A stretch of DNA of 30,123 nt from a virus. The stretch's first letter is position 1. Each line of letters opens with the position of its first letter. Positions 82-29,787 of the stretch are shown piece after piece. Below the pieces are notes generated by a model. The model did no database searches, was not told the DNA's origin, and was given only the letters and a program-made list of their open reading frames with translations. Made by a program: the position numbers and the translations under genes. Location of the stretch: IMG/VR virus record IMGVR_UViG_3300047994_000027, positions 1 to 30,123 of that record; one strand, written 5' to 3'.

Positions 82-2232
82 ATGCCTCGTGAGATCTCTC
101 AGGCATACGCCAGCTATCTTACCAAGGGCGACAAGCTCCTCAGTATCCTGCAGGACCGCCTTACTAACCTGACCGAGGGCAAGAAGCTACAGGCATTGCT
201 GGCTAAGGGTACTGACACGCTGCGGTATCCCAACGGCAAAGTTCTGAATATCACGGAACAGGGTGAGAAGGGTCTTCAGTATAACCGGCAACTCATCGAG
301 ACTGCGGTACTAGCCGGGTTGCAATGGCTCCAGACCGCTCCCCAGTTTCAGGGTCAGATGGATGAAGACACGGTTGCATCCCTGACAGGTCTCGATCGAG
401 ACGCTGTAACCGACCCAATGGTCAATGCTCTGACAGTGAGCGGGCTTTTCGCTGTACCAGCCAAGCTCACTATGGCTCAGAAGATCTCGGAGTTCTGGGG
501 TCTATCGACTGGACCTGACTCTCTTGATGGCTACACCCAAGGCATCCCGGAAGCGGTTGCAGCAGAACTACTGGAAGCCATGATCACTAGCCAGGATCTC
601 TCCAAAAACCTTCTCGACTTCAAGGACAGGAACGGAAAGATAATCGCCGGCATGGAGGGTGTTAAGCCGATCAACTTCTACACACCTGCCAAACTGAGTG
701 ATGAGCATCAAGCTATTGCGTCATCGCCATCACTTATCGAACGGGCAGTTCTAGTTACACCTCAGGATGTGACGTACTTCGATAACGAAGATCCACCGGT
801 TGCGGACACACAGCTGCGTAATCCAGCGGTGAGAAACACACCCGAGCAGAAGGAGATGATCAAGAACGAGCAGGCGACACGCTTCTATCTGAACATGCCG
901 ATGGTCAATCTGCTCAGCGATCTGGGCCTGGATAATGTTCTACGGCTCTTCGGAGCTGGTAAGCTCGATCCAGAGACCATGAACGAGTCTCACTTCCTAT
1001 CGCTCGATGGCAAGAACCGCACGATCGAAGGTGCATTCGATGCGCTCAGCGATATGGTAGCAGAGACCAAGGCGCGTGCTGATGCTGCTGGTGTTGAACC
1101 AGACCAGATGGGCATTCGTCCTGCTTACAACATCACCCGTGTTGGGCGTCTCCAGATGCTGGGCCGCTATAACATGCAGTCCACCAAGCTCATTCGCGAG
1201 GCTGTACTCTCGACGCGATCGACTATGGACCTGAGCAACCAGAACAGCCTTGAGTACGGCAAGTTCATGTTGGGATTGGCTCAAGCCTTGGGCCTGAAGG
1301 TTCATAAGCAGAGTTTGGCAGCCTCAATCGCTGGGGTGAACAAGCTACTGGCTGGTCCATTGGCTCCATCTGTAGAAGACCTTCGCGAGTTTCATGCCAC
1401 ACAGAAGGCACCGGCATCTCTGACAGATAATCTGGTCAGCAACTTCGGTGCCATGAACGATGGACGGGGTGAGCCTCTGACCACCGTGGCTCTGCATGCA
1501 CTGACTGAGTATGCCCGGCTGCAAGAAGTAGATGACAAAGCAAGGAAGGCTTTCACCACCTCGATCTATGTCGAAGCTGATGGTGTCACTAATGGCCCAA
1601 TGATGGGGATGAAACTGCTAACGGCGGGCAAGTTCACTGCCGATTGGGTAGCGAAGATGGCCAAGGGTGGGCTGTTCTTCCAAGCTGGAACCAATGGGCC
1701 CAAGACTATGGGCGAACAACACGAGTGGGGTGTCGAAAACGGCGGTGACAGCAAAGACCTCTATCAGACCATGACGGACACGCTGCAGCAGACCTTTGCG
1801 CAGCACGAAGGACTCCTGACTGACTCGAAGGTCAAGGCACAGCTGGGTCATCTAAAAAACCTAATGGATCAGTTCCTGCCTGACTTCGAGATCCAGGACA
1901 AAAAACTCGTTATGAGCCGGGGCATTGCCAAGAACCCACTGACCATCACCATCTATGGATCAGGTGAGGCGGGCATTGCTGGTAAACTTGTCGGAGCGAT
2001 CATGGATCAGCTCTACGAACGGATGACAGCTGTTGCTCAACGTCAGGCTGCTAATCCGAAGATGACTACAGCAGAGGCAATGTTTGGCAAGCAAGCGACT
2101 GACCTAAAGTCAGCTCAAGATATGTACGCGAAGTTTTTGCAGAGCTTCAATGCACTCAAGTCCAATGAGTTTATCAAGAATGCACGGGCCGGGTGTAACC
2201 GCCACTTGAGGCCGGTCGTAATCGCCACCTGA
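82..2232 (+). CDS. Virion RNA polymerase (N4 gp50-like), catalytic part, truncated by IS21
   Basis: This is the single-subunit T7-like RNA polymerase that N4-type phages package in the capsid and inject to transcribe early genes from hairpin promoters. Several blocks match N4 vRNAP: TQLRNPAVRNTPEQK; TRVGRLQMLG (the TxxGR motif, Arg codon at 1147); VEADGVTNGP (motif A, Asp codon at 1579); and RGIAKNPLTITIYGSG (motif B, Lys codon at 1930, Tyr codon at 1954). Spacings between these residues are close to those in N4. Genuine phage sequence ends at 2180; the last 17 codons to the TGA at 2230-2232 are read from the IS end. ATG 82 follows GGAGG at only 3 nt; TTG 67 is an in-frame alternative. Homology starts at about residue 1 of this ORF, roughly 65 residues into the N4 mini-vRNAP domain, so the whole N4 N-terminal domain is missing. 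Motif C lies beyond the IS. Family call is very firm; the start is uncertain. Confidence 0.93.
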   Translation: MPREISQAYASYLTKGDKLLSILQDRLTNLTEGKKLQALLAKGTDTLRYPNGKVLNITEQGEKGLQYNRQLIETAVLAGLQWLQTAPQFQGQMDEDTVASLTGLDRDAVTDPMVNALTVSGLFAVPAKLTMAQKISEFWGLSTGPDSLDGYTQGIPEAVAAELLEAMITSQDLSKNLLDFKDRNGKIIAGMEGVKPINFYTPAKLSDEHQAIASSPSLIERAVLVTPQDVTYFDNEDPPVADTQLRNPAVRNTPEQKEMIKNEQATRFYLNMPMVNLLSDLGLDNVLRLFGAGKLDPETMNESHFLSLDGKNRTIEGAFDALSDMVAETKARADAAGVEPDQMGIRPAYNITRVGRLQMLGRYNMQSTKLIREAVLSTRSTMDLSNQNSLEYGKFMLGLAQALGLKVHKQSLAASIAGVNKLLAGPLAPSVEDLREFHATQKAPASLTDNLVSNFGAMNDGRGEPLTTVALHALTEYARLQEVDDKARKAFTTSIYVEADGVTNGPMMGMKLLTAGKFTADWVAKMAKGGLFFQAGTNGPKTMGEQHEWGVENGGDSKDLYQTMTDTLQQTFAQHEGLLTDSKVKAQLGHLKNLMDQFLPDFEIQDKKLVMSRGIAKNPLTITIYGSGEAGIAGKLVGAIMDQLYERMTAVAQRQAANPKMTTAEAMFGKQATDLKSAQDMYAKFLQSFNALKSNEFIKNARAGCNRHLRPVVIAT
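2173..2180. repeat. Target-site duplication, left copy
   Basis: ATCAAGAA precedes the IS left end and is repeated exactly after the right end at 4935-4942. Eight base pairs fits the 4-8 bp duplications usual for the IS21 family. Both copies lie in the vRNAP coding sequence, and collapsing them to one restores the reading frame. Confidence 0.93.
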
Positions 2233-2288
2233 GGCCGGGGAAACCGCCACCCCCAGTCCGGTGAATTCGCCGGTCCGACAGCGCCAGG
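2181..2288. repeat. IS21 left end with tandem binding-site repeats
   Basis: After the terminal TGCACGGGCCGG, three related units occur with a 22-23 bp period: CGCCACTTGAGGCCGG at 2200-2215, CGCCACCTGAGGCCGG at 2223-2238, and CGCCACCCCCAGTCCGG at 2245-2261. A partial unit (GAATTCGCCGG) follows. IS21 elements characteristically have several such repeats per end, bound by the transposase. No gene lies here before istA. Confidence 0.8.
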
Positions 2289-2351
2289 GTGTGCCGCCGA
2301 CGTCGAAGTAATCGCGACTACTGTCCGGCCTTTTTGGGCGGGGTAGCAGTA

Positions 2352-3887
2352 GTGCCGAGACCGAGGGCGGAGATGCGACGGATCAGGGAAGTTTTACGAT
2401 TGCGTGCGGAGTTGGGTCCAAACGTGACCGCCATATCGGCGGGCGCGAAGCTGGCTCGATCGACGGTGCGGGCTTATCTGGAGCGGGCGGCATCAGCCGG
2501 GCTGGACGCCGCCTCGGCCGATGGGCTGTCGGAGACGGCGCTGGAGGCAGCGCTTTTCCCTCCGCCGTGCGCAGCGCTTGTGCGTCCATTGCCCGATTGG
2601 GCCGCAGTCGATCAGGAACTGCGGCGCTACAAGCACGTGACGCGCAGGCTATTGTGGATGGAGTACCGGGCTGCACAGCCGGATGGTCTGGGGTACAGCC
2701 AGTTCAAACTGCGGCTGAGCGAATGGCAGAAGGCCTCTGGGCGAGGCCTGTCGATGCGCCAAGTGCATCATGCTGGCGAGACGGTGCAGGTGGACTATGC
2801 CGGCGACACGGTAGCGGTGGTGGACGATGGGACGGTGCGTGCCGCGCAGATCTTCGTGGCCTGTCTGCCGTGTTCGGGGCTGATCTACGCGGAGGCGACG
2901 TGGAGCCAGGCGGCGGAAGACTGGCTTGGCACACATGTCCGCTTGTTTGCCTTCCTTGGTGGCGTACCGGCCAAGGTGGTTCCCGATAACCTGAAGGTCG
3001 GCGTCACCCACGCTTCCTATTACGACCCGGTCGTCAACGCCAGCTATGCCGGGCTGATCAAGCATTACGGCACGGCCGTGGTTCCGGCGCGGGTGCGGCG
3101 CCCGCGTGACAAACCCGGCGTCGAAAATGCGGTATTACAGGCTTGCCGCTGGCTTCTGTCGCCGCTGCGGCATCGCCAATTCTTCTCTCTGGGCGAGTTG
3201 AACCAGGCGATCGCGCTGCTGCTCAGCGAACTGAACGACAAGCCGATGATGCCGCCACGCGAGGGCAGCCGGCGCGGCTTGTTTGAAGCGGTAGAACGCG
3301 CAGCGCTCAAGCCCTTGCCGATCGAGCCCTATGTCGTCGGCCGCTGGGCGATCGGGGCGACGGTCAACCTGGACTATCATGTCGCGATCGAGCGGAACTT
3401 CTACTCCGTGCCGTTCGTGCTGGTCCGCAAACGCGTCGATGTCTTCATCACGGGCAGCGGCGTGCAGATTTTCCATCGCGGCGAGCGGGCGGCCAGCCAT
3501 GTGCGCCAGAGCGGACAAAATCACTGGACCACGCTGGGCGAGCACATGCCGCCGGCCCATAGCGCCGTGGCCAACCGCACGCCGGACTGGGTTCGAGGCC
3601 AAGCGGCCAAGTTCGGCGCGGCCACCGCTGCCTATGTCGAGCGGCTTCTGACGGGGCGCGATCATATCGAGCAAGGCGTGCGGTCCTGTCTTGGCATTCT
3701 GAGACTGGGGACCCGCTATCCAGGCGAGCAATTGGAGGCGGCCTGTGTGCAGGCGATGGCGGCCGGCGCCTGTTCGTCAGGCTTCGTCGAGCATCTGCTC
3801 AAAAGCGGGCAACCACTCACCGAGGCCGTCGCCGACGACGGCCTCGGCGACCACCGCAACGTTCGCGGGGCCGGCTACTATCATTGA
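2352..3887 (+). CDS. istA: IS21 transposase IstA
   Basis: IstA is the DDE transposase of IS21 elements; it binds the end repeats and, helped by IstB, cuts and joins DNA. From GTG 2352 it is 511 residues, the normal size. A helix-turn-helix lies near residues 24-44. The DDE triad is visible as D148 (VQVDYAGD), D212 (KVVPDNLK) and E258 (KPGVENAV), followed by the usual IS21 C-terminal region. GTG 2352 was chosen because it has a G-rich Shine-Dalgarno-like stretch about 8 nt upstream and precedes the family-like RRIREVLRL start. ATG 2373 and an upstream GTG at 2289 are also in frame. istB follows after 36 nt. The gene looks intact. Confidence 0.94.
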   Translation: MPRPRAEMRRIREVLRLRAELGPNVTAISAGAKLARSTVRAYLERAASAGLDAASADGLSETALEAALFPPPCAALVRPLPDWAAVDQELRRYKHVTRRLLWMEYRAAQPDGLGYSQFKLRLSEWQKASGRGLSMRQVHHAGETVQVDYAGDTVAVVDDGTVRAAQIFVACLPCSGLIYAEATWSQAAEDWLGTHVRLFAFLGGVPAKVVPDNLKVGVTHASYYDPVVNASYAGLIKHYGTAVVPARVRRPRDKPGVENAVLQACRWLLSPLRHRQFFSLGELNQAIALLLSELNDKPMMPPREGSRRGLFEAVERAALKPLPIEPYVVGRWAIGATVNLDYHVAIERNFYSVPFVLVRKRVDVFITGSGVQIFHRGERAASHVRQSGQNHWTTLGEHMPPAHSAVANRTPDWVRGQAAKFGAATAAYVERLLTGRDHIEQGVRSCLGILRLGTRYPGEQLEAACVQAMAAGACSSGFVEHLLKSGQPLTEAVADDGLGDHRNVRGAGYYH

Positions 3888-3923
3888 TGGCCGTTCCACC
3901 CGATCCAGCAATAAGGAAAATTT

Positions 3924-4691
3924 ATGCACCAGCCCACCATCGAGAAGCTGCACGCCCTGCGCCTTGGGGCGATGGCCAATGCGCTGACCGCGCAACTCCA
4001 GCAGCCTGATATTGACGCCATGCCGTTCGCCGAGCGGCTCGGGTTACTGGTCGATATCCAGCACAGCACGATGCTCACCGCCGCCTTGCAGCAACGTTTG
4101 ACCCGGGCCGGCATGCGCCAGACCGCGTGCATGGAAAACCTTGACCTGCGCACGCCGCGTGGGCTGGATCGGTCGACCATGCAGACGCTAGCTGGCGGGT
4201 TATGGATCCGCCAGCACCGCAACATTTTGATCAGCGGGGCAGCCGGCATCGGCAAAAGTTGGATTGCTTGCGCGTTGGGCAATCAGACAGCCCGTGATGG
4301 CGTCTCTGTGCTCTACAAGCGGCTATCGCGCCTGCTCGACGAATTGGCAGTGGCGCGGCTGAACGGCAGGCAAGCGCGACTCCTCAAGACGTTGGCCCGC
4401 ACGCGCCTCCTGATCTTGGACGATTGGGCGATGGCCAAGCTGACCGCCGATCAGCGCCGCGACCTGATGGAGGTCATCGACGATCGGCACGGCCGCGGCT
4501 CAACGATCGTAGCCACTCAGATCCCCCAGGAACGGTGGCACGAGCAGATCGGCGACCCCACGTATGCCGACGCGATCCTGGACCGCCTGGTTCACAACGC
4601 CTACCGCCTCGAACTCAAGGGCAAGTCAATGCGCGATACCCAATCCCGTCAGGCTGCCGCGGACAAGGCTGCTGATGAAATAAGCGAGTGA
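3924..4691 (+). CDS. istB: IS21 transposition ATPase IstB
   Basis: IstB is the AAA+ helper ATPase of IS21 transposition; it loads on target DNA and recruits and stimulates IstA. The 255-residue protein has a Walker A motif GAAGIGKS (residues 105-112) and a Walker B motif LLILDDW (about 162-168), with the N-terminal helical region typical of the family. The ATG is preceded by AAGGAAA. It lies 36 nt after istA on the same strand and is presumably cotranscribed. No frameshift or missing motif is visible, so the element is probably competent for transposition. Confidence 0.95.
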   Translation: MHQPTIEKLHALRLGAMANALTAQLQQPDIDAMPFAERLGLLVDIQHSTMLTAALQQRLTRAGMRQTACMENLDLRTPRGLDRSTMQTLAGGLWIRQHRNILISGAAGIGKSWIACALGNQTARDGVSVLYKRLSRLLDELAVARLNGRQARLLKTLARTRLLILDDWAMAKLTADQRRDLMEVIDDRHGRGSTIVATQIPQERWHEQIGDPTYADAILDRLVHNAYRLELKGKSMRDTQSRQAAADKAADEISE

Positions 4692-4934
4692 AGTAAAGGA
4701 CTTACAATAGTTATCCCCGTTACTCACACAATTCACAGCCAACCGCTGCATAAACATCGAAGACTATAGAAACATTCTAGTTGATTGAGGCTTGCGGGGC
4801 AATATACAGTAAAACTGTCAGCGGCACACCTACCTCGCCCAAGGGCTCGGAGCCTGCAGCCAGGGGTGGCGAATTCACCGGCCTCAGGTGGCGGTTACGA
4901 CCGGCCTCCGGTGGCGAAAACTCCGGCCTGCGCA
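4692..4934. repeat. IS21 right end: AT-rich spacer and inverted binding-site repeats
   Basis: After istB comes about 170 bp of AT-richer DNA in which I recognise no gene. The right-end repeats follow, in inverse orientation to the left end: a partial unit at 4864-4882, CCGGCCTCAGGTGGCG at 4878-4893, CCGGCCTCCGGTGGCG at 4901-4916, and the terminal CCGGCCTGCGCA ending at 4934. The downstream vRNAP frame reads back through this end without a stop to TTG 4785, with an in-frame GTG at 4866. A fusion translation of the 3' polymerase part is thus formally possible. Confidence 0.75.
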
Positions 4935-4942
4935 ATCAAGAA
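4935..4942. repeat. Target-site duplication, right copy
   Basis: ATCAAGAA is identical to 2173-2180 and directly abuts the IS right end; vRNAP coding sequence resumes here. Confidence 0.93.
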
Positions 4943-7900
4943 AAAGGATGGCACTGTTTTCGTAAAGCGGGGAGATGACCGGGCACGAGACAGCGAAGAC
5001 GTTACCAAGGTGGATCCAATACAGTTTGCCTTGACGAAGGAGAGCTACGCCAATCTCCAGTCGAACATGCAGCATTTGTTTGTGGCTCCAATGACCACGG
5101 CCATCAAGCAGACCGTTGGCGAACCGCTTATGCAATCTGCCTCACTGATCCAGAAGGCGACACAGATCCAGTCGCTGTTTCAGCAGGCAATGTTCTCTCG
5201 GCTGGTGAAAGAAACCCTGGACGCCAAGAGCCAGGGCGAAGGCAACGAGAAGGCTCGCTTCGATGGTCTCTCCCGCAAGGAGAAGGACGACATCATGGAG
5301 CAGGTCATGAATGCTTACCCGCTGATCAACACAGAGGGTAATCGCCAGTCCTTCTTCGTAGCTGGTTCCCAGTCCACTGATGTGAATGCAACGGCCTTCG
5401 GTGAGTCGCTCGACGGCAAGTTCCGTTCGCCGGGCTTCGTGTACGGCCCGATGGACTCTGGCGTTGCTGGCATCCCGTTCATGGTCATCGGAACCGGAGA
5501 CGGTCAGATGATGCAGACGCTCTCCACCATGAAAGGAGCGCCAAAGGACAGCACCAAGATCTTCGATGGTGTCAACTTCTCCCTACACTCCCTGGAGTCA
5601 GACAGTGCCAAAGCGAACCAGGCAGTCTATGACGCTTGGCAGGGTAATCCCATGCAGGCGGTGTCGACCATGTTCGACAAGTCCATGACTGGCTTCCAGG
5701 CGGACTTTGAGAGCATGCCAGATGCCCTGAAGGCTAAGGTGCTTCGGGCATTGATCGGCCCAAAAGAGGTGGACGAGCAGGACATCGATACCCGTGGTCT
5801 GTTTATTGCCATGCAGAATGACCTGCAGCGTTCGGCTATGGAGATCCAGGCTCGGCAGAATGTCGTGGCTACGGTAGCCCATAACATCGATCAGATGGCT
5901 GCTGCAGGATCGCCGTATGTACACAAGGGAACCCAGCTTCAGGGCACGAACCACGAGGAGATCGCTGCCGAACTTGAGGCTTTACGTCAAGTAGAATTAG
6001 TTAAGCTTCAAGCGAAACGGACCAGTGCCAGCGATACAAGGGTAACAGCCCCAAAAAAATCCGCTAGCAATAGTCAGGATACTGTGGCACCAGCATCCAA
6101 ACTACCCACTGGACCGTTTAGTGATATCTTATCAAAAGGTGGGCAGTCTAATATCCCGAGTGGGCTTTTAACCTTGGGAAAGCTTCATACGAAGAGCAAC
6201 GTACGTATTTTATCGCCTACATCTGTTGCTCAGTATGCAAAGCAACTGGGTTTGAATTCTGCTCAAGCTGCTATCTTTACTCAGATACGCCTATCCAAAG
6301 TAGCTAGTAACTACAAAGTTATTTATGGTTCGCCTGAGGAACTGAATGCTTACGCTGATAGTACAGGACTTCCTCGGCCTAGCCTGGCATCTTCCGATGG
6401 GGTAACTCACGGGCTGACAGACCCTACGACACAGACCATTTGGCTCGTAAACCCTACGAATGCTGAAACGCTAGTGCATGAACTGATCCATGCAAGCACG
6501 TTTTCTGTCTTGCAAGCAGTGATGGAAGGCCGAGAAACCACACCTGAGGTTGTGGATGCTGTGAAACGTATCAGTGCTCTTATGGAAGAATTTAAGGTCC
6601 TAGGGGCTGAACTACAACGACCAGATGTTCATCTTGGAGCCAATACCCTCAAGGCAGTACAGGACTCACTTGCTGCCATTAAAGAATGGCAGGAGGCTGA
6701 TCCTACCATTTACGATCAATCCGACCTTGATGCAGCTGCTCTGGGTGAGTTCATGGCGTGGGGTTTGGCCAACCAACACCTAGCAGCTATTCAGCAAAGA
6801 GTTACAAGTCCTTTAGCTAAGCTTGCAAAGAGTATTGTTGCCTCGATTAAAGCAATCTTATTCCCGAAGTCGCGTATCCCTAAACAGGCTGATGACATGC
6901 TGAGCCACCTAGTGTTCAACACTAGCATCTTGATACGGGCGCAGAGTACGCTGCAGCAACAGGCAGCGACGGTTTCTTTGGCTCACAACGAGAAGTACGG
7001 TGAAGACCAGCGACTTGCCGGGATCAGTGATACGTATATGCGGACAATGGTGGACTATGCTAACACCAGTCCTGTGGATTATGACAACAGTGGGCATGTA
7101 GACCCGAAGGCACAGGCTGCCGGTGATAGGGTCAACCGCAAGAGCGAGGTCACAGAAGCTTTAGAGCGAGCCCAAATCATGGGTGAACGAGTCGCGAGTG
7201 TATTCTCCATGAACCCGCAGCAGTTCACTACCTTCCAGCTGCTCACGGCTGCCCTGGGGACAGCAGCTCACGTCGACTCGAATGCTCTCTCTACGGGCCA
7301 GACGTTGTTTACTCATGTGAACAACCTCCTCTCGCCTATGAGTTTCATGGCCGAGGGTATGAGTGAAGATCACCCGAACTACCAACGGGACCTGAGCTAC
7401 GCCGAGGAAAAGCACGCCGTCATCACTGGGCAGGTGCAGGGTTACAGAGACAGCTACGGTCGCAGCTCTCTCCTGCCAGTGTTCCTGGCCCTGGCCACAG
7501 TGCATGACGAGTTCCGTGCGGTCCTCGCCAAGATGCCTGTGCCAAAGACCATGCTGGAAAAGGGAAACACCCTAGACGGTATCCTTACCAACGCAGGCAC
7601 CATCGCCATGGATAGCTTGTCTGCCGTTATGAGTGGGGCAAGCAGGAGCCGAAATGTAGTCGATGCAGTAGATGCTTTGAGCCAACGCATCCGCGAAGTC
7701 ACCGCCGACCGGCAGACTTTGCTCGACCAGGTGGCATCACCTATTGGACGTATGGCCGACCGAGGCAACCAAATGCTCGTCGACCTGATGGGGTATCTGG
7801 CTGGCAAGGCGAACCAAGGAGCCGATGCTCTCGTGGCTCGGGCCAACAACAAAGCGACCCGGCTCGTGCAAGCTGCGGCCAAGGCGACCAACCTCCTCGT

Positions 7901-10418
7901 GAGTGAGGAGAAGGCCGACCTCGTAGCTCAGGACCTGATGTCGCACATCAATAAGATGGAGCGGTTCCGTTTCGTCCACGACCAGATCAACAACATCGTC
8001 GGGCGAACTGAGAACAACAAAGGTGTCTATGACCTACTGAAGCAGATCCTCTCTGGTGTGCAAGCTGATGCTCAACAGTTTCGTGAGGTTCTACCCAGCA
8101 CGATCGACAAGATGTTCACCCAGCGGCTATCGAACGAGCAGTATTCCACACTGTTCCGCGGACTGGGCAAGACTGACCTTGCAGCCCTAGCCGGACACTT
8201 CAGTGTTGAGCAGGTAATGGATATGCTCCAGGATCCTGTGAAAGGTTTCAAGGCGTCTGCTGCCCTAGAGAAATCCCTTGAGGCCCAAGACCCACAGCAC
8301 TGGAAGCTCGTGCAGGCAAAGGCAAAGCAGCTCGCTAAAGCTATGAATGGTGGACCCCGTGGTTCCAATTTCCTACGCAACGCTGAGGCTGTAGCAGACC
8401 TATTGGGAGAGAAGACTGCACCAAAGCGGAAAACCCCGGACGCAAAGTATGTCTCTGAGGTCGATCAGCTCACCAGTCTCTATGCCTTCCAGGGTCTGGG
8501 TAAGGCTGACATGGCCACCCTAAAGGATCTCGCCATCAATGAACCAAAGGGGATGCAGTTCATTCATTCCTATATGATAGGTAACCGAGCAGAGGAGACA
8601 CGCAAGGCGGGCCTGAATGGTATGGCGAAGTACAACAACCTCAAGGGTTACGTACCGTCTCTCCAACAGGACGGTCTGAGCATGCTCATTGCCGATGATA
8701 CCCGTAGTTCGGAGCTACTAGAACGCAGCTACCAGCGAGTGGGTGACTATCAGGGTTCGTCTGCCGACGTTCCTCACGTGTCGCAGGGCTACTACTTTGC
8801 TCCTGTGTCACGACGCTCTCCCTTCTCCCAGGGGATTATGCAGAACGTCCAGCAGACGGTGAATGGTGTCGACGCCAACACCGGCCTGAGCCTGGGCCTT
8901 ACCGGTGGGCGTGTCGTAAACCCGGACGAGGTGAAGCGTGTCACCCGTGCCTTGGCAAACGAGAAGGCACCAGCAGGTGAAACCCTCAACCCGATCTACG
9001 CACCCAATGGAAGAGTCGTTGCCTACGAACGGTCAGCAGATCCAACTCAGCTCCTGAAGTTGAACCAGGACCAACATCTGGGGAAGATGATTGGTGTCTG
9101 GCGTGGACGTCAGGCTGAAGAGATCAATGCTCACCAAGCAAACATGACGTTGATCGATGCACTGAAGGCGATGTATGACGCCGACAAGAAGAAGACGAAC
9201 TTCAACCCGAAGCAGTACGTCAACTTGTACGACGAAGCCGAACTTTTGAAGGACCCTGTTCTTGGAGACGCTGTGAAGTTGTTCTCTGACGAGGCACGTC
9301 AATACATCCAAGAGGTATTCGGGAGCCAGTTCATGGTTCGCCGGGACATGCTCAACGACGCTGTGGGATATCGGAATGCATCGGTCACCGACTCTTGGAC
9401 TGGTGTCACCCGCTACTCTGAGGCGACACAGAAGGTGATCAAGAATTTGGGTCTGAGCATCTGGGGCAATGATGCCTACCGGAAGCTCTACAGTACCGAG
9501 AAGACGGTACAGAATGTGGTCAAGGATGCGAAAACCTTGATCGTTGTGAAGTCTCTGGTCGTGCCAGCATCCAACTTCGTGTCCAACGTGTACCAGATGA
9601 TGACCCGTGGTATCTCACCACTGACCATTGCCAGGGCACTGCCGAAGAAGCTCGCTGAAGTCCACAGCTACACGACGTCCAGGCTGCGGCAGAATGAGGC
9701 CGAAGCCGAACTCCGCGTGGCCCAGGCGACCAAGGATGTGACGGGAACTCGGAGGCTTACCGCCGAGATCCAGTCGATCCAGGATGCCCACTCGCGTCTG
9801 AGCATCTGGCCGCTGATCCAGGCTGGCGAATTCAGCGGTGTGTCCGACGCAGGGATCTCGCGTGACGATGTTCTGCTGACCAGTGGACGGCTCAACGCCT
9901 ACATGGAGCAGCTGGCGGATAGGTTGCCTGGTCCCTTCAGGACACTTGGGCGGTATGCCTTGGTGACCAAGGACACGGCGCTGTTCCAAGGGATGCAGAA
10001 GGCTGTGGAGTATGGGGATTTCCTGGCCAAGGCGATCACGTATGACCACCTGACGATCAAGAAGGGAATGACCAAGGACATTGCTCTGGGCAGAGTGTCC
10101 GAGGAGTACATCAACTATGACCGACTACCGGGCCGGGCTCGTGGTGCTCTGGAGGGACTAGGGCTGCTGTGGTTCTACAACTACAAGCTTCGGGCCCTAA
10201 AGATCGCTGCAAGCATGGTCAGGGAGAACCCACTGCATGCACTGCTCACCGGGTTGTTGCCCACTCCATCGTTCCTGCCGGGCGTCGGTACACCCCTCGG
10301 GGATAACTTCCTGAGCAAAGGCATAGAGCATGGGCTCGCTGGATCAGTCGGTCCCGGAATGCTCTTCCGGGCTGCGAAGATGAACCCAGTGGCCCATGTC
10401 CTAGGTATAGTGCTATAA
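4943..10418 (+). CDS. Virion RNA polymerase, 3' part (motif C and C-terminal domain), cut off by IS21
   Basis: This is the continuation of vRNAP after the IS, about 1,825 residues. The block AGIPFMVIGTGDGQMMQTL and then KIFDGVN match N4 vRNAP; the Asp codon at 5565 is motif C, one of the two catalytic metal-binding aspartates. N4-like polymerase sequence continues to the IDQMAA region (codons near 5887-5904) and ends around 6000. An AT-richer segment with HELIH follows (separate entry), then a long C-terminal region with N4-like size. In N4 the C-terminal domain is needed for packaging into the capsid. After the IS there is no obvious ribosome-binding site. The open frame begins inside the IS end (TTG 4785 or GTG 4866), so expression is uncertain. 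With the upstream part, the joined protein would be about 2,530 residues, versus about 3,500 in N4; the deficit is all N-terminal. Confidence 0.9.
6000..6950 (+). other. Putative zincin metallopeptidase-like domain inside vRNAP
   Basis: The encoded segment has VHELIHAS (His codons at 6477 and 6489, Glu codon at 6480), an HExxH zinc-protease signature. A later acidic motif, LGEFMAW (near 6750), could supply a third ligand. The stretch is visibly AT-richer than the vRNAP sequence on both sides; for example 6121-6180 is 43% GC. It starts right at the end of the N4 mini-polymerase homology. HExxH domains are known in large phage polyvalent proteins. I do not recall one in N4 vRNAP itself, so this is an inference. 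Confidence 0.5.
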
Positions 10419-18094: not shown

Positions 18095-18949
18095 TTATGC
18101 CTTCTCCGGTTTGCGTTTGGCCAGCGCCGCTTCGATGGCACTGGGTATCTCATCCTCACCGAGACCATTGGCGATGCCGATCTCATCCCGCCAAGTAGGC
18201 CAGAACACAGACAGCTCGCCACCTAACTTAACCTGAGGGTGCGAGATATCTGGATGCTCCTGCCAGAACACGGCATCCACGAGGTGTTTGTTCGTAAACG
18301 CCAGGGCGGCGGCATCCTCTCGAATGAGGTAATACTGGGCATCATGGATCTGAGCACAGGGTCTGATATCGAGCTTGAACTCGCTCTCTCGCACCTTGCC
18401 CATGAACTCGGACCCAGCTCTGGTATTCAGCAGACACCAGCTCTGCCCTAAGGCATTACCAGCTGATCTACCCTCGGCAGCAGCTTCGTGTGGCGTACGC
18501 TTGTTGCCTCGGATCACCTGCTGGAGCAGCGGCGTCCGAACTCGAAGACCGAATGCTCCAGTGATGTAACCGTCGACGCTGGCTTGTTGGAGCTTAGCCT
18601 CTACCCAGGCATCACTGACCTTGTAAAGTTCGTGATACCGAGCCTCGACTGTCTTAGCTAAGGCAGGTGTAAAGGCATACTTGTTAACCAGTGTTTGCCA
18701 GGTACCCTGATAAGTCAGCGTAAAGGTAGGGTTCTTCGATTTTCCACGCAGAGCCTTGTACTTTTCCTGGATAGAGTTGATCGACTCCACGCTGTTGGGA
18801 TCGATATCAGGCATCTGCTCACTGTAGTAAGCCTGTGCTCTCAGAGAATGACCATCGTAGCCGTCCGTACGGCCAATCGGCTCCATTGAAACGTGTGCAT
18901 CTTTAGGGATTACGACGGGCGATCCTCGCAAGGTTGTCAATAGCTGCAC
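18095..18949 (-). CDS. DNA polymerase (family A), C-terminal part, split gene
   Basis: The 284-residue protein contains the second half of the polymerase palm and fingers. Motif B is R68xxxK72x7Y80 in LRGKSKNPTFTLTYQG; motif C is QIHDAQYY (H202, D203). Typical N4-like stretches such as ELYKVSDAWV and GYITGAFGLRVRTP are present. Homology starts at DGYDGHSLRA (residue 29). The first 28 residues are not recognisable polymerase. GTG 18949 has AAGGAG 10 nt upstream and lies 47 bp inside the end of the HNH gene, so it may be translated as a separate subunit. Motif A is on the other fragment, so neither half can work alone; they must associate or be joined by splicing. The split is real in the sequence; the mechanism is unknown. 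Confidence 0.9.
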   Translation of the reverse strand: MQLLTTLRGSPVVIPKDAHVSMEPIGRTDGYDGHSLRAQAYYSEQMPDIDPNSVESINSIQEKYKALRGKSKNPTFTLTYQGTWQTLVNKYAFTPALAKTVEARYHELYKVSDAWVEAKLQQASVDGYITGAFGLRVRTPLLQQVIRGNKRTPHEAAAEGRSAGNALGQSWCLLNTRAGSEFMGKVRESEFKLDIRPCAQIHDAQYYLIREDAAALAFTNKHLVDAVFWQEHPDISHPQVKLGGELSVFWPTWRDEIGIANGLGEDEIPSAIEAALAKRKPEKA

Positions 18950-19460
18950 GGCGTCTGTTCTCCTTCATTACAGTGACCCAGGTGTCATGAATACCTAGGC
19001 GCTTTGCAGTGTCGCGAAGCATCTTGTGGAGCGTCTCAGGTGTTCGCTGGATTGCAGCTGCTAGGTCGTTGACTTGGCGACCAGCTAGGATCTCACGCAG
19101 GTAAGTTTCTTTATCATCAGCAGACATATAGCCGGGACGTAAGCCGGTTCTGAAAGCGTGCTCATGATTACCTGCAGAGCTACACCACTCCAGATTATTC
19201 ATTTCACAGTGTGCCTTGACACCATCCTTATGGTTCACCTCTGGGTACTCATATGGATTTGGTATGAAGTGAAGGGCTACCAGACGGTGTAGCAGTAGTT
19301 GCTTATGATTACCCTTTCCATCTGCCAAGCCAACTTTGCGATAGCCGTTGGAGTTCTCTATGGACGCTAGCGGTATGTTATTCGCCAGATTGATTACCTC
19401 ACCAGCAGAGCTAATGAGGTAACGGTTTTCAAACCTGGCAATGGGTAACAAAATAGGCAT
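18903..19460 (-). CDS. HNH homing endonuclease inserted in the DNA polymerase gene
   Basis: The 185-residue protein has a NUMOD4-like start (YLISSAGEVIN, about 14-24). The HNH core is LLLHRLVALHF then PEVNHKDG (N76, H77) and NLEWCS (N89-W92). A DNA-binding C-terminal part with a helix-turn-helix-like segment (NDLAAAIQRTPETL) follows. Such enzymes cut a cognate allele lacking the insertion, often in phage DNA polymerase genes at conserved sites. The ATG (AAGGAG 10 nt upstream) lies 32 bp inside the end of the N-terminal polymerase ORF, and its stop lies inside the C-terminal ORF. Only about 130 bp of the insert lies outside this ORF, little for a full group I intron. It may be free-standing or intron-borne. 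Confidence 0.9.
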   Translation of the reverse strand: MPILLPIARFENRYLISSAGEVINLANNIPLASIENSNGYRKVGLADGKGNHKQLLLHRLVALHFIPNPYEYPEVNHKDGVKAHCEMNNLEWCSSAGNHEHAFRTGLRPGYMSADDKETYLREILAGRQVNDLAAAIQRTPETLHKMLRDTAKRLGIHDTWVTVMKENRRRAAIDNLARIARRNP

Positions 19461-21411
19461 CGGCTCTCATCTCCTTACCATCATAAATAATGGTAGTATC
19501 ATCGCGGACATGATGGTCAATTCCATTTATGCTGAGCTTGTAAACAATATGCCCCGTGTAGACGGCGATCTTGTTCGGGTCTTTGGACGTCAAGGCACTG
19601 ATCTTGTCTTCGAGCGATGCGAAATCGAGCCCGCAGAAGATCCATCCAGCGATGGCTTCGACACACCATTTGATCCACTTCGCATACTTCGAGCTGGCGG
19701 GTAAGTTCTGCAGGTTCGGGTTCGAGCTGGACAGCCTGCCTGATATGGTTCCTCCAAGATTGAAGTACCCAAACAGGTAGTGCCAACCATCTGGACCTTT
19801 AGCAGCCCCAAGAAAGCTTGGTATGAAGTCTCCTAGGATCTTCACCACCTTGCTGTACTCGATCAGTGCGGTGATAAAGTCCCGTACTAGATCACACTTG
19901 GCATGGTGAACCAGCTTTTCCAGTGTTTTGCCTCCAGTAGCCGGCTCCTTTGTCGGGGTAAAGTCCAACACTGGTAACGCCAGCATGTCGAACAGCAGCT
20001 CTTGTAGCTGCGGACCAGACCGAGGATTGAAAACGATCTTTGCTGGTACGTCATCGAGCGTGCCACGTTTCTTCTTCCATTCCTGGTTCATCTTGTCGAT
20101 CCAGGCTTGGCGAAGGATCATGGTGTACTGCTGAGCAATTGGTGATGCTCTAAGTTTGGCTAGAGCCTCACGCTCATCCCGCTCCAGCAGATACTTGACG
20201 ATCTTTACCTTCCGCATGTTCACCGGCAGGCCGGTAAGCTGCATCTGGACGACGTCTTTTACCGCAGGCTTGAAGATATTCTCGTAGAACTCCAGCTGCT
20301 GATCGGCCACCATGGTTCTATAGTGCTTTTCATGGACATGCCAGGTACTCATGCAGTCGATAAGATTGTAACGGAGCAGCTTATCCATCGGGATGAGTGT
20401 GATGTCCTTGATGTCCTCACCCATGGAGTAGTTGCCAGCAAATTCCTGAGCTTGAGCTTTCAAGCCAAGCTCATTTCCAGCACAGGTATTTGTCGCCAGG
20501 AAACTGATGAGCTTCGTGCAATCCCAGTTTCTGAGCATGATCTCCATGCCTCGCAAGAGACCCTCAGTGTCGAGAATGTCTTTCATAAAGAGCTGGTAGA
20601 TCAGGACGTAAACGTCAAAGCTGATGTTGTGGTAGATCGCCTTCTGTAGAAGCTGCTCAAAGAACGCTACGAGCATAGCCCGGAGATGGGTGTTACGGAT
20701 TTGGCGTCCGTAATGGATACCACCAGCGTCGTCAGTCCACTCTTCAGATACATAATCGACTGCGAAAGCTATTCCCTCGTGTTTAGACCAGGCAAAAGCA
20801 ATTGAACCAATGCCAGCCTTATGGTGCTTGAGGTCGAAGCCCTCGATGTCGATCGTCAGCGGACAGTTCATATCGAGGAGCTTGCACAGCCACTCTTCGA
20901 TCTGTTCACTGGTGTGAGGATACTCCTCGAACTTGATGATCTCGTGCCCTGGTGCTTGGTATGCACCAGAAGCATGATCCACTAGAGCCGTCATCCCCTG
21001 GCTGATCTTCGCTCTAACCTTGTCTGGGTCATAGAAGATCGTCTTGAAGCTAGGCACATAGACGACTTTGTAAGGTCCATAGGGCGTGTTCAGCACGTAT
21101 CCTAGGTTAGCATCGACCTTAGGCACCGTAGTGAGCGCTTTGAAATACTCACTGTCGGTCACTACGAGATACTGTGCTCCTGCTGCCTCAACAGCAGGGA
21201 TCAACTCCTCCGTGATGAACTCGCGGATCTCAGTAATAGGAGTCTTCTTTTTCTCCCGAGAGTGATGGAGGGATAGAACCATGACTTCTTCAGGGTCGAT
21301 CCCGAACGGATCCAGATAGGCGTCCCGTATTGCTGCCGGTTGTATCTCTGGAACCAAAATGACAAGTGGATAGGTACTATTGGCACCCACCGAATATCTG
21401 TGATGACGCAT
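19429..21411 (-). CDS. DNA polymerase (family A), N-terminal part, split gene
   Basis: The 660-residue protein has the 3'-5' exonuclease domain and first half of the polymerase domain. Exo I is TIDIEG (D188, E190), Exo II is HNISFD (N262, D266), and Exo III is Y348xxxD352. Polymerase motif SGRLSSSNPNLQNLP lies near 557-571 and motif A is CGLDFASLED (D596). About 180 N-terminal residues precede the exonuclease domain, as in N4-like polymerases. Homology stops after DPNKIAVYT (T619). The last 41 residues are read from the insert; the matching continuation DGYDGHS is at the start of the C-terminal ORF. Residues for metal binding are thus divided between two ORFs (D596 here, D203 there). It is the replicative polymerase of the phage. 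Confidence 0.92.
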   Translation of the reverse strand: MRHHRYSVGANSTYPLVILVPEIQPAAIRDAYLDPFGIDPEEVMVLSLHHSREKKKTPITEIREFITEELIPAVEAAGAQYLVVTDSEYFKALTTVPKVDANLGYVLNTPYGPYKVVYVPSFKTIFYDPDKVRAKISQGMTALVDHASGAYQAPGHEIIKFEEYPHTSEQIEEWLCKLLDMNCPLTIDIEGFDLKHHKAGIGSIAFAWSKHEGIAFAVDYVSEEWTDDAGGIHYGRQIRNTHLRAMLVAFFEQLLQKAIYHNISFDVYVLIYQLFMKDILDTEGLLRGMEIMLRNWDCTKLISFLATNTCAGNELGLKAQAQEFAGNYSMGEDIKDITLIPMDKLLRYNLIDCMSTWHVHEKHYRTMVADQQLEFYENIFKPAVKDVVQMQLTGLPVNMRKVKIVKYLLERDEREALAKLRASPIAQQYTMILRQAWIDKMNQEWKKKRGTLDDVPAKIVFNPRSGPQLQELLFDMLALPVLDFTPTKEPATGGKTLEKLVHHAKCDLVRDFITALIEYSKVVKILGDFIPSFLGAAKGPDGWHYLFGYFNLGGTISGRLSSSNPNLQNLPASSKYAKWIKWCVEAIAGWIFCGLDFASLEDKISALTSKDPNKIAVYTGHIVYKLSINGIDHHVRDDTTIIYDGKEMRADAYFVTHCQV

Positions 21412-29094: not shown

Positions 29095-29787
29095 TTAGGG
29101 GGATGTCTTTCCGACAAGCCGGTCCCAAGAGACTGGGGCGATTGGCTGGACTGCCTCAGCTACAAGCAGCATCAGGTCTCGGATCTCCTTTTGAGCATGG
29201 CCATCTAGTCGAAGCCCAGCTGCCCTGGCGTAGAACGAAAGCGAAGCCGTCTCGTAGAACTCGGTCATGTGACCCATGGGCAGGATGATCCGGGCCTGCT
29301 CAGGAGCTACGCCGTCAGCGATCATGCGTTCATAGAGATAGTCTACGTCCTGCCACTGGAGCTTGATGGCATCGAGCCAGAACTTGCTGTTGGGATGCTC
29401 ATCTCCGGAGCCTTGCTTGATCGAGCCATCGGGACGAGCCCTCAAGATCTCGGGGAGGAAGTACTCGGGCTGATCGTCGACATAGCGTCGGGACACCTCA
29501 TTCCTGGTGCCACCCACTGTATGCTTGAACCACTGGCGAGCGATGAAGATCGGCATGGCCAGCCGAAGTGTGACCACCACATGGGCGAAGGGTGTCCAGT
29601 GGTTATGCTCAGCCAGATAGCGAACCAGCCCGACATCTGACTGCTTCAGACTACCGTCATAGTTCCAGTTACTGGTCTTATTCATAGAGACACGGGCAGC
29701 GTCCACGACCCTCAGGTCATGGCCCATTGAGTCTATCAACTGAACTCGGCAGGCATTGGTAATACGTGAAGTCATACTGGTGGTCAT
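29095..29787 (-). CDS. thyX: Flavin-dependent thymidylate synthase ThyX
   Basis: The 230-residue protein converts dUMP to dTMP with methylenetetrahydrofolate and FAD. Family features are NHWTPFAH (62-69), ARQWFKHTVGGTRNEVSRRYV (83-103) and the C-terminal block ILPMGHMTEFYETASLSF with AQKEIRDL. The canonical RHRX7S signature is altered: KHT replaces RHR and one residue is added before the Ser (S99). I believe this variant occurs in other phage ThyX proteins. It supplies thymidylate for phage replication, in keeping with the MazG-like gene in the same programme. The ATG overlaps the preceding small gene by 4 bp (ATGA) and is followed after the stop by a terminator. Confidence 0.92.
   Translation of the reverse strand: MTTSMTSRITNACRVQLIDSMGHDLRVVDAARVSMNKTSNWNYDGSLKQSDVGLVRYLAEHNHWTPFAHVVVTLRLAMPIFIARQWFKHTVGGTRNEVSRRYVDDQPEYFLPEILRARPDGSIKQGSGDEHPNSKFWLDAIKLQWQDVDYLYERMIADGVAPEQARIILPMGHMTEFYETASLSFYARAAGLRLDGHAQKEIRDLMLLVAEAVQPIAPVSWDRLVGKTSP

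Follow-up and report, generated by a model that had tools for sequence, protein, structure and literature searches.

We find that the gene for the virion RNA polymerase (vRNAP) of an N4-like phage is cut by a complete IS21-family element between catalytic motifs B and C and, very probably, a second time upstream by an element of the IS3 family. The window is the whole stretch of DNA analysed, a single 30,123-base IMG/VR record (IMGVR_UViG_3300047994_000027); it is a metagenome-type contig, and all positions refer to it. We favor, at about an even chance, the reading that this is a defective schitovirus genome sheltered in its host as a carrier or provirus, not a lytic one.

A schitovirus fragment and its injected polymerase

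In N4, the vRNAP is packaged in the virion, injected, and synthesizes the early transcripts; it is essential. The contig represents part of a schitovirus (N4-like) genome: it encodes the N4-type giant vRNAP of Schitoviridae, matched by PHROG 2206 and by four Pfam vRNAP domains (PF21867, PF21624, PF21894 and PF21769). The right two thirds encode, on the minus strand, RuvC-like, SSB, Sak4-like, primase, exonuclease, DNA polymerase, helicase, rIIB and rIIA proteins, and past rIIA lies a gene for a ThyX-type thymidylate synthase (29095-29787, minus strand). This order is that of the N4 replication block adjoining the vRNAP gene, which in the N4 record likewise lies on the strand opposite the block. 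Genes other than that for vRNAP look intact, without stops. The phage collection, searched at the DNA level, gave almost no matches, and the contig is therefore a distant member of the schitovirus family; the closest relative found is a 75.9 kb IMG/VR contig (L005/L020) with approximately 55% identity in the polymerase domain.

An insert with an HNH endonuclease ORF (18903-19460) splits the DNA polymerase gene (18122-21411, minus strand) at the conserved VYT/DGYDGHSLRA, corresponding to N4 residues 610/611. Rfam gave no support for a group I intron in this gene, which is uninterrupted in the closest relative (L172).

The vRNAP gene lies on the plus strand in two pieces. PDB and PHROG alignments to N4 vRNAP place the left piece (80-2180) at approximately N4 residues 1075-1750; the right piece (4943-10418) runs to the stop codon and includes a large C-terminal domain. 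PHROG 2206 matches both, the right piece covering positions 1648-3405 of 3406. Aligned to N4 vRNAP sequences in the PDB, the left piece holds the TRVGR motif (1135-1149), motif A (EADGVTNG, 1573-1596) and the motif B Lys codon (1930, N4 K1666), and the right piece the motif C Asp codon (5565, N4 D1948). A reading from sequence only had named the gene an N4-like vRNAP and distributed these motifs in just this way; we take the same residues to be catalytic, as in N4. The active domain of the N4 enzyme (998-2103) contains motifs A, B and C together with TX2GR, and mutation indicates that their function is conserved (PMC4496689). The gene shares its domains, motif order and genome neighborhood with N4 gp50, from which it differs in encoding an enzyme approximately 44% identical and in being interrupted, very probably at least twice. 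The C-terminal domain also contains a metalloprotease-like HExxH motif, HELIHAS (6477-6497), whose N4 counterpart at the same place is HELVHAS.

The IS21 element and the left-end IS3 terminus

The complete IS21-family element spans 2754 bp on the plus strand (2181-4934) between exact 8-bp target duplications (ATCAAGAA, at 2173-2180 and 4935-4942); the chance of an exact 8-mer at one given pair of ends is approximately 1.5e-5. Two bacterial homologs (L060 and L061) align at 80-81% nucleotide identity over exactly 2181-4934 with similar ends, an independent confirmation of the boundaries, and have no target duplication of their own. The element's ends (TGCACGGGCC / GGCCTGCGCA) are accompanied by terminal repeats, inverted and multiple, at 2200-2253 / 4863-4916. 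Both of its plus-strand frames are open: the istA transposase gene (2352-3887, GTG start, 511 aa) scores 260.6 bits against the curated NCBIfam model NF033546 (cut-off 160) and aligns with the DDE triad present (D148, D212, E258), and the istB helper ATPase gene (3924-4691, 255 aa) scores 228.6 against the curated NF038214 (cut-off 200) and matches PF01695. Two-gene organization, DDE transposase, helper ATPase, terminal repeats and target duplication are all common to the IS21 family, from which the element is no different in kind, its nearest copies being 80-81% identical in DNA. A near DNA search of plasmids found no IS21 copy, and IstA alone as query gave no confirmed match among viral and genome contigs; the alignment as query worked. 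The exact duplication and open genes suggest that the insertion is recent.

The insertion falls in a vRNAP loop of variable length among relatives, and splits the helical domain PF21894. The left vRNAP frame stops 17 codons inside the element (TGA, 2230-2232), and an open frame for the right piece extends from a TTG (4785) that is also inside it; both pieces are stop-free outside the inserts. When IS21 and one duplication are removed, the two flanks join into a length divisible by 3 and a single frame reads through, bearing out earlier claims of an intact element with an exact duplication whose removal restores the frame.

A very probable second insertion in the same gene had been missed. Alignments to N4 and relatives show that vRNAP homology begins only at about base 81, and the left frame upstream of base 80 is not phage. 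Blast matches to copies in plasmids and in Acetobacteraceae identify bases 1-79, with the last base at 79 or 80, as very probably the upstream end of a minus-strand element of the IS3 family, whose transposase genes would extend to the left beyond the contig. Against plasmids, bases 1-130 matched four records (Azospirillum, Novosphingobium, Rhodovastum), every match ending at 79-80, and three copies in an Acetobacteraceae MAG (G002) match bases 1-79/82 at 87-89%. Aligned outward, the copies have ...GGCACGGAGGG in common bar single mismatches and diverge beyond it, at the point where the contig turns to phage. The terminus resembles other members of the IS3 family in matching copies with orfA and orfB just inside it (L017, L140, L141, L147, L164 and L165), and differs in that only the 79 terminal bp are present in the contig. 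It occurs in 19 of 300 genomes of the Acetobacteraceae, sometimes in several copies, and many host contigs also end near it, as expected for a multi-copy repeat; an exact 22-mer from it was found nowhere in IMG/VR. The contig's left end thus lies in the IS3 repeat approximately 2.1 kb upstream of IS21, and with this terminus the gene would have no fewer than two interruptions in a span of 2.1 kb.

Host and rarity among schitoviruses

The two elements point to a host. The nearest IS21 relatives are in G001, G002 and G031, all from the family search around G002, and both elements have close relatives in this one MAG: an IstA relative at 86%, and the closest IS3 termini. Both G002 and G004 are labeled as Acetobacteraceae. 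We take the host to be alphaproteobacterial, probably Acetobacteraceae or near, with only moderate confidence as mobile elements travel. Phage DNA was found neither in plasmids nor in six candidate host genomes. Among 398 genomes from the candidate host family, only 1 has a vRNAP-like match; this 63-aa stretch (G113:C172:11667-11855, in L158 and L171), 43% identical to the contig protein, is possibly a schitovirus remnant, and we rejected it as a host schitovirus polymerase gene because it is only a fragment. As for signs of a provirus, the left end of the contig has IS sequence only, the right end has no plasmid match, and there is no host flank in the 30 kb.

Insertion sequences appear to be rare in the schitovirus family, as none of 40 related IMG/VR schitovirus records carries a transposase of the rve type, the type searched for (the control was positive in 6 of 14 named genomes). 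No relative has an insertion sequence at the IS21 site, and nearly all those retrieved have a single open polymerase frame across it, the exceptions being contigs that stop earlier, L026 with a frame break, and L196 with intervening genes. In L026 (IMGVR_UViG_2700988792_000001) the vRNAP is in two overlapping frames near contig-protein residue 1253, reflecting either a frameshift or a sequencing error. In the N4-like L196 (9341-18314 of IMGVR_UViG_3300047477_000034) one ORF encodes the vRNAP N-terminal domain (1102 aa) and another the catalytic part, with three ORFs of possibly structural function in the approximately 3.8 kb between them. L027 (IMGVR_UViG_3300018472_000003) seemed to stop at the same codon; we discounted it because its tail reads like sequencing-adapter read-through, the last 14 codons giving RSEERRVGKECRSR, which looks like an Illumina adapter left in the assembly.

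Searches of IMG/VR found no exact empty-site 24-mer and no IS-free copy of the gene among the records searched. No sister contig bearing the rest of the vRNAP gene was recognizable. Phage genes are known to be inactivated by insertion sequences; for an N4-like injected polymerase to be hit twice is unusual, and we found no report in the literature of an insertion sequence in a schitovirus vRNAP.

Consequences for the phage

Because of the stop codons and truncation, full-length polymerase cannot be made from this copy of the gene. The phage copy in the contig is probably unable to propagate alone and to complete an independent lytic cycle, as virions without vRNAP would, judging by N4, inject DNA that is not transcribed early. 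The sequence-only reading had offered a recent mutant, a subpopulation, a decaying prophage or an assembly mixture, a sensible list made without knowledge of the IS3 terminus; one recent hit does not account for everything, as the contig starts inside IS3.

In the sheltered-genome reading that we favor, host insertion sequences of two families would have jumped into the vRNAP gene, IS21 between motifs B and C and IS3 approximately 2.1 kb upstream. Unaided, a genome cut twice in this way would yield virions that cannot start infection; most likely it would instead persist inside host cells that shelter it, either as a carrier-state genome or as a provirus on the way to being grounded, and there losing the first lytic step would be neutral or favored. 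Arguing for this are the exact duplication and homolog-confirmed ends of IS21, the second terminus in the same gene, the presence of both IS families in one Acetobacteraceae MAG, the lack of rve transposases in the 40 relatives, and the N4-like proviruses reported in Moraxella (PMC10654107). That the contig crosses IS21 and ends in IS3, and does not run through an intact vRNAP gene, also suggests, as an argument about assemblers, that the insertion-bearing molecules were the main ones assembled. As in grounded or IS-inactivated prophages and N4-like proviruses (PMC10654107), a phage gene is inactivated by host elements; unlike those proviruses, the contig shows no integration junction. Counting against it, these 30 kb contain neither a host junction nor an integrase; the 398 candidate-family genomes gave the single 63-aa match; any decay is young, since no stops occur in the other genes or in either vRNAP piece; and the two insertions may be carried by separate molecules.

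Somewhat short of an even chance is that the insertions mark mutants hitchhiking in a lytic population, in which insertion sequences jump into replicating DNA and co-infecting intact phage supply the polymerase, carrying the mutants as passengers for a few rounds. As N4 biology indicates, vRNAP is a packaged protein and so can be supplied by another genome; the intact look of all other genes and the apparently recent IS21 insertion are also consistent with hitchhiking. A minority genome, however, would not ordinarily prevail at both junctions of an assembly, and no IS-free copy was found among the IMG/VR records searched. A bolder idea, which we consider unlikely, is an N4-like lineage that does without the injected polymerase, host-resident or helper-dependent, its lytic-start gene repeatedly silenced by host insertion sequences.

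A mistaken join of phage and host sequences is very improbable. The contig is of the metagenome type and ends in a repeat, as such an artifact might, but a false join would not create an exact 8-bp duplication, nor would it coincide precisely with where two unrelated elements end; on these grounds we reject chimeric assembly. We give least credence of all to a working split polymerase made as two pieces that reassemble: a two-piece relative exists in nature, N4 RNAPII (PMC4496689), IS21 sits in a length-variable loop and the right piece is open from the TTG within it, but the cut falls between motifs B and C, IS3 also severs the left piece from the N-terminal domain, and no relative is split at the same site.

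We suggest, from the hits by two IS families in the gene on which the start of infection depends, that the population does not select for vRNAP. If most molecules carry the insertions, the contig would serve as a lead, at the sequence level, both to a non-lytic phase in N4-like phages and to poorly known Acetobacteraceae-type hosts.
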